This document shows, in pieces, positions 56,203 to 63,903 of a stretch of 64,000 nt of DNA. The stretch covers positions 1 through 64,000 of the forward strand of contig CAMDJM010000021.1 in NCBI GenBank assembly GCA_945900785.1. The letters are read 5' to 3'. A program made the position numbers and the translations under genes. The stretch's first letter is position 1. Each line of letters starts with the position of its first letter. Under the pieces are notes generated by a model that saw only the letters and a list, made by a program, of their open reading frames with translations, had not been told where the DNA came from and ran no database searches. This DNA is from Akkermansia muciniphila (lineage in GTDB: Bacteria; Verrucomicrobiota; Verrucomicrobiia; Verrucomicrobiales; V1-33).

Positions 56203-56283
56203 CCAGTCTGAGCTTGGTTTCCAGCCCCCTGCAAGGATAAGCTGACAAACCAGGGAAGTGCCGGAGCCTGAAAACCAGTCCGC

Positions 56284-56502
56284 TCAACTTTGCTCCACTA
56301 ACACCTCCAACCGCTTGGCGCTGACGGGCTGGGCGGTGCCCAGTTCATGGGCGAAGACGGAGACCCGGTATTCCTCCAGCAGCCCGCGGAAGGCCGCGTC
56401 CCCACCCGCGTTAGCGCATCCTGGAAGCCGATCACCTGTTTCGGCTTCATTGCCGGAGCCACCGCCAAGCTCCTCAGTTCCTTCTGCAACCACGCGATCC
56501 CA
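56284..56502 (-). pseudogene. degenerate, internally deleted direct copy of the hrpA 3' end
   Basis: [35 protein letters not shown] joined to [34 protein letters not shown]; hrpA has [35 protein letters not shown]...[34 protein letters not shown]. Confidence 0.93.
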
Positions 56503-56504
56503 CC

Positions 56505-56590
56505 CTGGGCCAAAGGCCCCTCCCATCCCAGCCTGGGGCAACGCCCCAGGAAACCGGCCGCAACAACCCCAAGGGCTGAAAGCCCGCCCC
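56505..56590. repeat. REP-like GC palindrome cluster
   Basis: gggccaaaggccc, gcctggggcaacgccccaggaaa, aagggctgaaagccc. Confidence 0.75.
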
Positions 56591-56781: not shown

Positions 56782-57780
56782 TCAAAGCCCGCTCTCTTTT
56801 GGGAAGTATTTCCGGATGAATTCCGCAGAAAGATCCTTGCGGGTTTTTGCCCATTGGATTTCATCGCGTCGGACACTCTCGCTCAAGGTTTTTCCTTTTT
56901 CCAGCAGCGACGTGACTTCCAACCCTACCTTTTTCGGATTCCATTTCTCTCCCAGCACCCCGGTTGCGGTAGTAAATTTGGAAAATAGACGCTGCTTTTC
57001 CTCCGCTCTGCCCGCTTTGGAAGTGGCAATTCGGTAGGCAAATGCTGCGTTTGTCATGGAATTGGTTTCCCAGTCGCCGGAGAGAAGCACGTCACCCAAA
57101 GCCTCCTGCAATAGCGGATTGTCGAAATCCGCAAATCGCATCATGCCCAGAATCCCTTTCAGCGCGGCCGCGCGCTCAGGCTCGCCCCAATGTTTGGTAT
57201 CCGAATTTAGCTGCTCTTTGAGAAAACGGGCAAATCCGGTTGGCTTATTGTGACGGTCATGCCCATCATCCGGCAGGACAGCTTCCTCCGTCTTAACCGG
57301 GCGCGGCTCCTGAGACCACAAAACGAGCCATCGCTGATATTTCTCCCGGCCGAAGTGGGCATCGGGGTTGATGGCGAGGGCTTTGTCGATCCATTTGACG
57401 GCCTCGTCCGGCTCGCCGGTGTAAATATAAAAAGTCCCCAAATTGGAATAGGTCTCATACAGGCCAGGGAAAAGCTTCTCCTTTTCCATCATGGTGGCGA
57501 TGGCAGCCCGGTGATCGCCCTGTTTATGCTGGGATACAGCCAGATCATCATAAACGGACGAAGTCGCGCCGCCTTTGCCCAGGGCTTGCTGACAGTTCGC
57601 GGCACGCCATCGGTAAAACTCCATGGAGTGCCGGGGGAAATTCCCCGTCATGATTTGCAAAGCCTCGGGAAACCGTGCCTTTTCCACCGTCATCGTCTCC
57701 GAATCCCACAAACACGCAGGGCATGAACCTGTTCCCAAAATCAGAACCACCGACAGAATAGTGAAGGAAATCGTTTTCAT
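56782..57780 (-). CDS. exported TPR-repeat protein
   Basis: MKTISFTILSVVLILGTGSCPACLW...; YETYSNLGTFYIYTGEPDEAVKWIDKALAINPDAHFGREKY (TPR). Confidence 0.83.
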   Translation of the reverse strand: MKTISFTILSVVLILGTGSCPACLWDSETMTVEKARFPEALQIMTGNFPRHSMEFYRWRAANCQQALGKGGATSSVYDDLAVSQHKQGDHRAAIATMMEKEKLFPGLYETYSNLGTFYIYTGEPDEAVKWIDKALAINPDAHFGREKYQRWLVLWSQEPRPVKTEEAVLPDDGHDRHNKPTGFARFLKEQLNSDTKHWGEPERAAALKGILGMMRFADFDNPLLQEALGDVLLSGDWETNSMTNAAFAYRIATSKAGRAEEKQRLFSKFTTATGVLGEKWNPKKVGLEVTSLLEKGKTLSESVRRDEIQWAKTRKDLSAEFIRKYFPKESGL

Positions 57781-57868
57781 GAATAACAAACGCTTATTCC
57801 TTCTGCCCTTCAGCGTCAAGCAAAGCCCTGCTCCATCTGAGCCAGCCTACGTCGAAAACCATCCCCAT

Positions 57869-60800
57869 TCACACTTCCTCCAATAACGCCTCCAGCCGCT
57901 TGGCGCTGACGGGTTGGGCGGTGCCCAGTTCCTGGGCGAAGACGGAGACCCGGAATTCCTCCAGCAGCCAGCGGAAGGCTTCGTAGTTGGCTTCCGGCAC
58001 TTGTGATTTCCAATCGCGGAAGGGCACGAGGAGGCGGGCCCGCTCGGCGTCCTTCACCGGCGAAAGCCAAGCCCGCTCCCCGCGTTGCAGCATGGCTTTC
58101 AGATAGCGTGGCAGGTGCTCCAGACGCTCGTGCGGAGTGTGCTTCAGGAAATCCGGCGGCACCAACCGGGCCAGATCTTCCTCCAACGCCCCGTAGCGCC
58201 GTTCGGTGCTGCGCAATTGCGCGATCAGGGCGTTGATGGTTTTGGTCATCTCCCGCACCCGCCCCGCGAGGGAGGGCAAGCCACGCCGGGCCTGCTCCGT
58301 CATTTCCTTGAAGCGCTCCCCGGTCAGGGGGCGCAGCGGAATGAGCCGCAACGAGTGCTTCAGCAGGTGCTCCAAAGCCAGGGCCGGCACGTCCGAACTG
58401 ACATAGGCATCCGAGGAAAGCTGCGTCCCCACCCGTGCCAGGGCATCCTGGAAACCAATCACCTGTTTCGGCTTCACTGCCGGAGCCGCCGCGAGGGTTC
58501 TCAGTTCCTTCTGCAGCCAAGCAATGTCCTTTACCAGCGCCAGTTCCGCCAGTTTCCGCACCGCCGCTGGCGCGGCCGACTCCGCCGCCGCCCTCGTCTG
58601 ATGCAGCCGCAGGGAAACCTTGCTATCCTTCTCCAGCACCGGGCCCGGCCAGCCCAGGACCGCCACGCCCCCCAGCGTTTCCACCACCACGGATTCCGGC
58701 AAATCCCCAAAAGTCCATCCGGTGAGGTTCGTCTTTTCCCAGCGCGACACCGCTGACAGCCACGCCGCCGATTCCCCCGCCTGCTCCTTCCCTTCCCGCC
58801 GCACTTCATCCAGATTCCGGCTCACTGCCAGCACCTGACGCTGCCGGTCCACCACCTGCACCCGCGGCTTCAAATACTCAGGCAGACTATCCGCCGGCCA
58901 ATCCGCCGCCATCACTGGAATGTCATAACGGTTGGTGATGAACTTGGATAGGCCTATTAAAAAATCACCCGCTCCGGGATCAAAGGATTCCGTGATTTCC
59001 TTGATCTTGTGCTCATATGGCATCAGGCGCTTCCGGGTCGCCTTCGGCAGCGCCCGCAGCAGCACGCCGATGATTTCCGCCCGCAACCCGGGCACCATCC
59101 ACTGCATCTTTCCACTGGTGAGATGCTGGGCCACTTCCACGGGCACCTCCACCGTCACCCCATCCCGCTCGCCCCCTGGCCGGTAGGCATAGGACACCGG
59201 CAGCACACTATTCCCCAGTTGCACGGTATCAGGAAATTGCAGGGGATCACACACTTCCTCACGGCCGCCCGTCAGGTCTGCCTCGGTGGCCAGCAGAAAA
59301 TCCGGGTCCGTCTTGAACTTGCTCTGCACCAGACGGTTCAGGTCGTGCACCGACGAAATCCGCTCCAGCCGCGCCTTGTAGAAATCGTAGAGCGCCTCCA
59401 TTACCATGAAGGTCCGCTGGCTCCGCGCCCGGGCAAAGACCGTTTCCAGCTTGTCGCGCAGCCGCCGGTTCGCGGCGTGGAAGGGATGTGTCACCGCCCC
59501 GCTATCCTCCAGCAGCGCATAACGGATAAAAATCTCCGTCGCCGACACCGGGTCGATCTTCCCATAGTCCACCCGGCTGCGCTTCAGCTCCAGCCCATGC
59601 AATAACACCCGCTCCAGCGCCAGCACCCGGCCGGTTTTTTCATCCCAGAGCGGCTCGCTGTAGCGGAACTCACACAAATGCCCGCCCACTTCCACCACCC
59701 ACTCCGGCTGGATCCCTGCCAGCGTCCTCGCAAACAACTGCGACGTCTCCACAATCTCCGCCGCCATAATAAATGCTGGCTGTTTGCTCTTCTCCGGCGT
59801 TGCGCCCTTCGGCAGTTTTTTGCTGCGCTCGAAGACATGTGATCCCGGAAACACCTGCACCTGACGATTCCCCGCGCCCTTGTAAACATTCCGCTCCTCC
59901 CGCCGCGCCACATGCCCCAGCAGCGCGGACAAGACCGCCCGGTGCACCGCATCCGCCTGCGGGCCGTCCGCCATCCGCAGTTCCGGCAACTCCGGACCCC
60001 GCATTCCCATGGTGTCCGCCAGTTGGCTATAGACATCCCGCCACTCCCGCATCCTCACAAACGACAAAAACGAGCCCCGGCACAGCTTCCGCAGGGCATT
60101 GCTGCTCCGCCAGGCATTCGCCGCCGTGGCCGCCTGCCAAATCTTCAGCAGCGTCAGGAAATCCGACGAGGGATGCCCGAACGCCGCATGCGCCTGCCGC
60201 GCCGCGTCCTTCGCCTCCTCCGGCCGCTCCCGGGGATCCGGAATGCTCAGGCCTGCCGCGATCACCAAAATCTCCGGCAGCACCTGCTCCTGCCGCGCCT
60301 GCAGCAGCATCCGCCCCAGCGAAGGATCCAGCGGCAGCCGCGCCAGCTCATGCCCCATCGGCGTCATTTCATGCACATCCGTCAGGGCCCCCAGCTCGTG
60401 CAGCAGCTCATAGCCGGAGCGGATTGAAGCCGGCAGTGGTGGATTCAAAAATGGAAAGCTCTCAATCTCCCCCAGCTTGAACGCCTTCATCCGCAGGATC
60501 ACTTCCGCGAGGTTGGAGCGCTGGATTTCCGGCTGGGTAAAGCGTGGGCGGTTTTCGTAATTCTCCTGGTCAAACAGCCTCACACAAATCCCGTCACTCA
60601 AGCGCCCCGCCCGGCCCGCCCGCTGGTTGGCACTGCTCTGCGACACTTCCTCGATCGGCAGCCGCTTCGTCCGCGTCCTCGGTGCATAACGGCTCATCCG
60701 TGCCAGCCCGGTATCCACCACATAACGAATCCGGGGAATCGTCAGGGAAGTCTCCGCGATATTCGTTGCCGCGATAATCCGCCGCTTTTTCCCTGGCGAA

Positions 60801-61674
60801 AAAATCCGCTGCTGCTCCTCCCCGGCCATCCGTCCATACAATCCCAACACCTCCACCCCACTGCCCAGGCTGCCCTCCAACTGATCCTTCAGCTCCCGGA
60901 TGTCCCGCTCCGTCGGCAGGAACACCAGCACATCCCCCTCATTCGATTCCATCCACACATCCTCCACCGCCCGCGCCGCCGCCGTGATGAAATCCCCCTC
61001 CAGTTCCTCCCCCATTGGCCAATAACGGATCTCCACCGGATACGTCCGCCCGCTTACCTCGATCACCGGAGCCCCGCCGAACGCCTCCGAAAACGTCGCC
61101 GTATCAATCGTCGCCGAGGTAATCAACAACTTCAGCTCCGGCCGTTTTTGCAGCAGCCCCTTCAGATAGCCCAGGAGGAAATCCACATTCAGCGAGCGCT
61201 CGTGCGCCTCATCAATGATGATCGCCGAGTAAGCCCGCAGCATCGGATCGCTCTGGATCTCCGCGAGCAAAATCCCATCCGTCATGAACTTCAGCACCGT
61301 GTCCCCGCTGGTATCATCATTGAAGCGCATCTTGCAGCCAACCAGACCACCCCACGGCACCTGCATCTCCTCCGCCACCCGTTTGGAAATACTCATCGCC
61401 GCCACCCGCCGCGGCTGCGTGCAGCCGATCCGCCCCCGCTCCGCCAGCCCCGCCTCCAAGCACATCTTCGGGAGCTGCGTCGTTTTCCCCGACCCCGTCT
61501 CCCCCGCCACGATCAGCACCTGATGCTCCCGCAACGCCGCCACAATACGGTCCCGCTGCCCGGAAACAGGAAGATCAACCGGATAACGAATGAGAGGAGC
61601 AACAGACACAGCAGGAAAAAGGAAAAAACCACCCCCGCCCCCAAGACAGGAACAGAGCCGCCCACTCTGACCCA
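57869..61674 (-). CDS. hrpA: ATP-dependent RNA helicase HrpA (DEAH/DExH); true start uncertain
   Basis: VLIVAGETGSGKTTQLPKMCLEAG, IIIDEAHERSLNVDFLLGYLK, LLITSATID, NQRAGRAGRLSDGICVRLF; DUF3418-like C-terminus. The supplied ORF runs to 62059. Confidence 0.94.
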
Positions 61675-61689
61675 TACTTTCCCATCCGC

Positions 61690-62059
61690 ACGGGGAAGTT
61701 CGGAGGTCGAGGTAAAAATCATCGCCGCCCACTTCCAGATGAACCCTCCTGCCGACGAAGGCAAAGCCCGCGCCCAACTCAAGGAGAAACCTTTGCACAT
61801 GATCCATCAGGGCCTGCTCCACTTCGGCATCGCGGCGGGGATCGGCGGTGCCAAGGAAGTCGAAGAGGTAGGGGTCTTTGAAAAGTTGAGCGGCGAGGTC
61901 AGAGTCCGCCGGGGGCATGGTAAGGGCAAAGTTGTTCAGGGCCTTGCCTGCGCGGAGGTGGAGCTGGCTTTGAATTTGCATCTCCAGGATGCTTCGGCTC
62001 CAGACGTGGGCGATGGTCTCGCGGATGTAAAAGTCGCGCGCGGCTGGGTCTTTGACCAT
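61690..62059 (-). pseudogene. DUF1016/YhcG-family PD-(D/E)XK nuclease fragment, in frame with hrpA
   Basis: MVKDPAARDFYIRETIAHVWSRSILEMQIQSQLHLRAGKALNNFALTMPPADSDLAAQLFKDPYLFDFLGTADPRRDAEVEQALMDHVQRFLLELGAGFAFVGRRVHLEVGGDDFYLDL, ending before the expected DLK-containing segment. Confidence 0.85.
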
Positions 62060-62268
62060 CTGGGCTGAGGGAAGGTAAGCAGGGGTTGGTGCGCTGACAA
62101 GTTATTACGGACGGAATTTCCGCACACCCACGTGCCCTGAATGACCCCACTCTCCCAGTCCTATTCAAACTTACGGCGGGCAGAACAATAGGATGAGGCA
62201 CCGGGGCTCACCGTGCCCGGCTTCGCGCTAACGCACCGCCGCCGCACCTGAGGTTCCGGAGCCTCCCG

Positions 62269-63903
62269 CTAGGGACCGACCGCCGCCGGGGAAACCCGGT
62301 AGGGCGTGGCCTGCTCAAAGGCGTAAGCATAGGCCAGGAGGTCGGCGTCCTTGCCTGGTTTTCCGATCAGGGTGACGCCGTTCGGCGTGCCGTCCTGACC
62401 GAGACCCAGTGGCACAGTAATGGCCGGATAGCCAGCGGTGGCGTAGAGTTCGGAGTGGCTGCCGCCCAAGCTGACCAGCACTTCCACCCTGGCACTGACG
62501 AAGGCCTGATCCAGCAGCGTGGCCATTTCCTGACGGAGCTTCAGGGCCAGGGCTTCGTAGGCTTTGGGTAGGGTTTCCTCCGTCGCTCCCAGCTCTTTCA
62601 GAAGCGGGGGCATCAGTTGGGCACCCAGATCAATCAGGTTTTGCCCCCGGGGGATGCGGGTTTCGGGCTTGGCGGCGTTGTAGGCTTGCAGCGCAGCGAT
62701 GGTTTTCATGGGCGACCCGGTGGAGGCGATAAAACCCAGAGTGTCCACCTGCAAGCCGAGGAAGATGAGAGGCAGGATCCGGGGCTTGGCGGCGAAGGTA
62801 TCGGGCACCTCGCATACCGCCGCTTTCGCCTTGCTGAGACCTTCATCCATGCGCCGCAGCCATTCCCTGGTTCCGCGGGATGGGTCCGCTCCGGTCAGGC
62901 TGGCGCGCAGCACGCCCGTGGCAACGCCTTCCAGGGCATTGGGCTTCAACCCGGCGGCATAATCTGTGTTCTTTTCATCCATCACGCCCAGCAGGATGGC
63001 GGCGTCTGATACGTTGCGGGCCATGGGACCGGCGGAATCCTGAAACCGGATCAGGGGCACCACGCCGTCTCCACTGACCACGCCCAGGCTGGGTTTCATG
63101 GCCACCACGCCATTGCAGGAGCCGGGCGAGATCAGGGAGCCTGACGTTTCCGAGCCAACGCTGATCACAGTGAGTCCAGCGCTGATGGAAATCGCCGATC
63201 CACTGCTGGAACCGGAGACCGGCAGGCCGTTCCGGTAGGCATTCACGCCGATGCCGCTGATGGCATTGTAGCCGGGTGGCTCCGTGGTCAGGGAACCGGC
63301 CAGTTCCGATAGGCTGGCTTTACCGAGAATGACCGCGCCCCCTTCGCGGAGACGGCGGGTCACGGTGGCGTCGCGGGCCGGCGAATGGTTCAGCAAAATC
63401 TCGGCCCCGGCGGTGGTGTGCAGCGGCGCGGCGGTGCCGATGTTATCCTTGAGATTCAGGGGAATGCCGTCCAGCGGCCCGCGTCCCTGGCCAGCCGCGC
63501 GGCGGCGGTCGGCTTCCCGGGCTTCCTCCAGACAACGGGGGTTCAGCTCCAAATAGCTGCGCAGGCTTTCATCGTAGCGCTGGATGCGGCTGAGGAACAG
63601 CAGTGTCAACTCCTCCGAGGTGCACTGGCCCGCTTTCAGGGCGGACTGAATATCTGTCAGGGTAGCCTCCCGCACCAGATCATGCAGCGCAGTCAAACGC
63701 ACCGGAGCGATTTTTTCCAGATCCCGCACAAAGGGCGCGAAATCCAACTGCCGCAGTCGGGGCAGCGGGGTGTGGACCGAAGGGGTGGCATCGGTTTTAA
63801 CTGGAGGGTCCTGCTGCGGGTGGCTGCATAGTGTCACCCCAGGAGCGAGCAGGAGAAGGAGGGCGGGGCAGACAGGGCGTGGAACCCATGAGGAAGGATT
63901 CAT
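62269..63903 (-). CDS. amidase signature family protein (GatA-like), exported
   Basis: SEELTLLFLSRIQRYDESLRSYLELN, GIPLNLKDNIGT, ILGKASLSELAGS, SGSSSGSAISISAGLTVISVGSETSGSLISPGSCNGVVAMKPS. Confidence 0.96.
   Translation of the reverse strand: MNPSSWVPRPVCPALLLLLAPGVTLCSHPQQDPPVKTDATPSVHTPLPRLRQLDFAPFVRDLEKIAPVRLTALHDLVREATLTDIQSALKAGQCTSEELTLLFLSRIQRYDESLRSYLELNPRCLEEAREADRRRAAGQGRGPLDGIPLNLKDNIGTAAPLHTTAGAEILLNHSPARDATVTRRLREGGAVILGKASLSELAGSLTTEPPGYNAISGIGVNAYRNGLPVSGSSSGSAISISAGLTVISVGSETSGSLISPGSCNGVVAMKPSLGVVSGDGVVPLIRFQDSAGPMARNVSDAAILLGVMDEKNTDYAAGLKPNALEGVATGVLRASLTGADPSRGTREWLRRMDEGLSKAKAAVCEVPDTFAAKPRILPLIFLGLQVDTLGFIASTGSPMKTIAALQAYNAAKPETRIPRGQNLIDLGAQLMPPLLKELGATEETLPKAYEALALKLRQEMATLLDQAFVSARVEVLVSLGGSHSELYATAGYPAITVPLGLGQDGTPNGVTLIGKPGKDADLLAYAYAFEQATPYRVSPAAVGP

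Follow-up and report, generated by a model that had tools for sequence, protein, structure and literature searches.

The minus-strand open reading frame (ORF) at 57869..62059, with 1396 codons and an ATG start, is best explained as an ordinary hrpA gene carrying a remnant of a yhcG gene in its leader, the two joined in frame by chance and the ORF over-extended as a gene call (probability about 0.8). The locus is mainly of interest as a warning for annotation: an automatic gene caller would record a fusion of YhcG with HrpA, yet the data favor a gene remnant lying in a normal hrpA leader. The window analyzed here is the first 64,000 of the 65,138 bases of contig C21 from a draft genome of 172 contigs that is 86% complete. 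An earlier note on this DNA had described a 1396-aa ORF with a DUF1016/YhcG start that passes into a normal HrpA, and both the ORF coordinates and the order of the Pfam domains agree with that description.

The YhcG-derived part was recognized by two Pfam profiles. PF06250 (YhcG_C) matched ORF residues 58-119 over profile positions 2-63 of 157 (68-74 bits), and PF17761 (DUF1016_N) matched residues 2-36 over profile positions 103-137 of 137 (25-29 bits), a score under its cut-off of 32.8 yet collinear with the YhcG_C match. The yhcG slice comprises ORF codons 2-119, that is, the end of DUF1016_N and part of YhcG_C. At the DNA level, the whole hrpA/amidase region was compared by blastn with the closest yhcG genes in GTDB genomes (L059-L072), which are full-length where the contig permits a view and come from genomes whose records carry labels such as Verrucomicrobia and Planctomycetes. 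Positions 62063..61704 matched the DNA of full-length yhcG genes at 85-86% identity with an E-value of about 1e-116, far beyond chance. Each homologue gave one block, the closest beginning at 62063 or 62055 and ending at 61704 or 61702 (80-86% identity), and such single, sharp-ended blocks against full-length genes indicate that the fragment (61702/61704..62063, minus strand) is an internal slice of yhcG cut at both ends, not a domain. Protein identity between the fragment and L059-L072 is 81-91%, the closest full-length homologues reaching 85% in DNA and 91% in protein. The interval first proposed for the chimera, 61600-62059, does contain yhcG DNA, but its hrpA-proximal part (61610..61702) is linker and the yhcG-derived DNA runs on to 62063.

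Protein alignments showed that the N-terminal ~150 codons of YhcG and everything past DFYLDL, including VIELK, are absent from the fragment, confirming an earlier remark that the catalytic lysine region is missing. DUF1016_N is represented by positions 103-137 alone of its 137. The YhcG motif has been described as E-D-E(I/L/V)K (PMC1189080), and the PD-(D/E)XK domain of YhcG_C that bears it is incomplete here, the sequence ending before LLFYHLRLRRYVVIELK. Because the catalytic E-(I/L/V)-K part is missing, nuclease activity of the fragment would be very unlikely. The missing 5' part of yhcG was not found in the intergenic DNA (62064..62268) that separates the remnant from an amidase-like gene (62269..63903, minus strand), and this interval had no significant match elsewhere in the same genome. 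A search for a second copy of the fragment across the genome returned the window itself as the sole match.

The helicase part of the ORF is complete. Residues 168-1394 carry DEAD/DEAH, Helicase_C, HA2, OB_NTP_bind and DUF3418 matches in that order after the fragment, with the DEAH core, HA2, OB-fold and DUF3418 arranged as in HrpA, and the gene (57869..61609, minus strand) encodes an intact ATP-dependent DEAH-box RNA helicase with 80% protein identity to the closest relative, G004, and 75% to a second same-genus genome, G003. DNA homology with both relatives begins at CCTCTCATCCGTTAC, which is codon 155 of the window ORF. The GTG at 61609 (61607..61609, minus strand) is the last in-frame start codon between 62059 and 61550 and gives MSVAPLIRYPVDLP. 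G004 has its own GTG at the same position, MPPTPLIRYPADLP (MPPTPLIRYP... vs MSVAPLIRYP... in the window), and G003 has an ATG nine codons ahead of PLIRYP. The frame upstream of hrpA in G004 is closed by a stop; the G004 contig reaches just about 135 bases past the hrpA homology on that side, making the upstream context only partly comparable. Taken together, the sequence evidence favors this GTG as the most likely site of hrpA initiation. No good Shine-Dalgarno sequence was found close to it. A terminator-like hairpin at 61655-61629 (minus strand) was considered and dismissed, about as many being expected by chance.

Between the fragment and the GTG lies a linker of 31 codons (61610..61702, minus strand), RTSPCGWESMGQSGRLCSCLGGGGGFFLFPA, which shows a loose, partial alignment to the non-coding G004 leader on its hrpA side and is probably hrpA leader itself. 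Its 31 codons stayed open in 43% of shuffles, which gives a chance of about 0.14 (~1/3 x 0.43, about 1 in 7) for an open junction in the correct frame. Other hrpA genes also have stop-to-stop frames of similar excess length on their upstream side, as in G177 (1456 codons).

To look for the same architecture elsewhere, as the earlier note had proposed, the full 1396-residue protein was searched in 57 relatives and in 387 genomes of the order, most of which gave long HrpA matches. None of the matches listed from either set joined the fragment to HrpA, so a conserved YhcG-HrpA architecture has no second case among those from the 387 genomes, three of which belong to the same genus and have hrpA without the fusion. 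All HrpA matches listed, except the window itself, begin at residue 119 or later. The G004 match starts at exactly residue 119 (80% identity), and a linker common to both genomes was therefore considered; it was rejected given the DNA homology from codon 155 and the upstream stop, and the early start is a chance extension. Searched as DNA against the 57 relatives, 61600-62300 gave nothing beyond weak matches to yhcG in three genomes that are more distant, and neither hrpA nor the amidase gene was found near yhcG at any of 80 yhcG loci.

These results bear directly on the possibility that the ORF encodes a real chimeric protein, an HrpA with a non-catalytic, YhcG-derived N-terminal extension of 119 residues that is either neutral or binds nucleic acid or protein. 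The frame is indeed open from 62059 down through hrpA, and all but a few fragment positions fit the YhcG family, with a dN/dS of about 0.07 to homologues. However, the fusion occurs in one genome alone among the matches listed, the linker partly resembles non-coding leader, a sigma-70-like promoter was sought upstream of 62059 and not found, and the slice halves the nuclease fold and drops its catalytic part, so that a stable fold is doubtful. We regard such a protein as unlikely. The headline of the earlier note, an in-frame chimera, is likewise not supported, given the lack of a fusion among the matches listed from the 387 genomes, the same-genus relatives whose HrpA homology begins at codon 155 and the GTG downstream of the fragment; its second option, a retained nucleic-acid-targeting add-on, lacks support on the same grounds (no conserved fusion, the codon-155 homology start and the GTG matched in G004). 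That the fragment is translated and kept, so that HrpA of this species would use a catalytically dead YhcG half-domain at its N-terminus to bind substrates or partners, seems very improbable. Were the fusion truly translated, it would add a new case in which an RNA helicase has captured a domain.

The age of the fragment was approached through its divergence. Compared with L059-L062, dS is 0.8-1.1 and dN/dS 0.06-0.07, and dN/dS to homologues as a whole is 0.06-0.08, with no stop and no frameshift in the fragment. Changes unique to the window fall at codon positions 1:2:3 in a ratio of 5:1:13, which still looks like purifying selection. These unique changes include G19V in the HGWSR motif, where the window has valine and 14/14 homologues compared have glycine. 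Most of the divergence probably accumulated while the yhcG gene was functional. The open frame and low dN/dS suggest that the fragment was either truncated recently or is still under some constraint, two histories that one sequence cannot separate.

The surroundings of hrpA vary. The amidase-like gene has only distant paralogues and no close orthologue in the same-genus genomes, while G003 has another gene upstream of hrpA whose orthologue lies on contig C43 in the window genome; the region upstream of hrpA therefore seems prone to rearrangement. These same two features could be expected if the draft contig had joined unrelated DNA near 61703 or 62063, as could the state of the assembly (172 contigs, 86% complete). 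However, both junctions lie inside the contig with 3 kb beyond them, an artefact would need either two joins separated by just 360 bases or a single join coinciding with the edge of a gene that was truncated beforehand, the fragment is found nowhere else in the genome, and gene order 5' of hrpA already differs between relatives. The data do not point to a chimeric contig, which we consider possible yet quite improbable.

Additional repeats and gene pieces were observed. Downstream of hrpA, at 56270-56498 (minus strand), the 3' end of hrpA is present in part a second time: 56270-56394 matches 57854-57979 (88%) and 56384-56498 matches 58411-58525 (84%), so that the copy has lost about 430 bases internally; this second remnant is another sign of rearrangement at the locus. 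An ORF with TPR-like sequence (56782..57819, minus strand) lies between this copy and hrpA. A short intergenic repeat at 56509-56559 has copies on C29 (three), C35 and C12, 85-97% identical over 33-51 bases. The same genome has two intact yhcG genes on C73 and broken ones on C10 (70028-70290, two pieces with a stop) and C41 (12046-12213, C-terminal part only). Fragmentation of yhcG is seen in another genome too, L075 (JAIFLJ010000039), which has a yhcG with an altered N-terminal part at 1-768 and a second small yhcG piece at 1596-1668, 0.8 kb downstream.

We favor the remnant because the fragment has sharp ends on both sides, no fusion appears among the matches listed, the GTG position is common with G004, a chance junction has a probability of ~0.14, long frames precede other hrpA genes, yhcG is broken on C10 and C41, and G19V has arisen. 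Counted against it are the lack of a stop or frameshift, the low dN/dS, the lack of a good Shine-Dalgarno sequence at the GTG and the short upstream contig of G004. In the history that we infer, a yhcG gene would once have stood upstream of hrpA, or been carried there by rearrangement; deletions on either side would then have removed about 150 N-terminal codons and all codons after DFYLDL, so that about 360 bp were left. With one breakpoint inside the hrpA leader, the remnant would happen to be in frame with hrpA across 31 stop-free codons, and hrpA would most likely be translated from the GTG as an ordinary helicase. A remnant extending the hrpA frame was the first option offered in the earlier note, and read in this way the locus is one of ordinary genome decay.

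Compared with known systems, the fragment resembles YhcG/DUF1016 (COG4804; PF17761 and PF06250; PD-(D/E)XK nuclease family) in that its 118 residues align gap-free to full-length YhcG at 81-91% identity. It differs in that just the final quarter is left of DUF1016_N and just the first 62 positions of YhcG_C, the E-(I/L/V)-K part being gone. The remainder corresponds to HrpA, the bacterial DEAH-box RNA helicase with DUF3418, with all domains collinear from codon 155 and 80% identity to G004, and its sole difference is the open frame that runs on upstream through the yhcG remnant.
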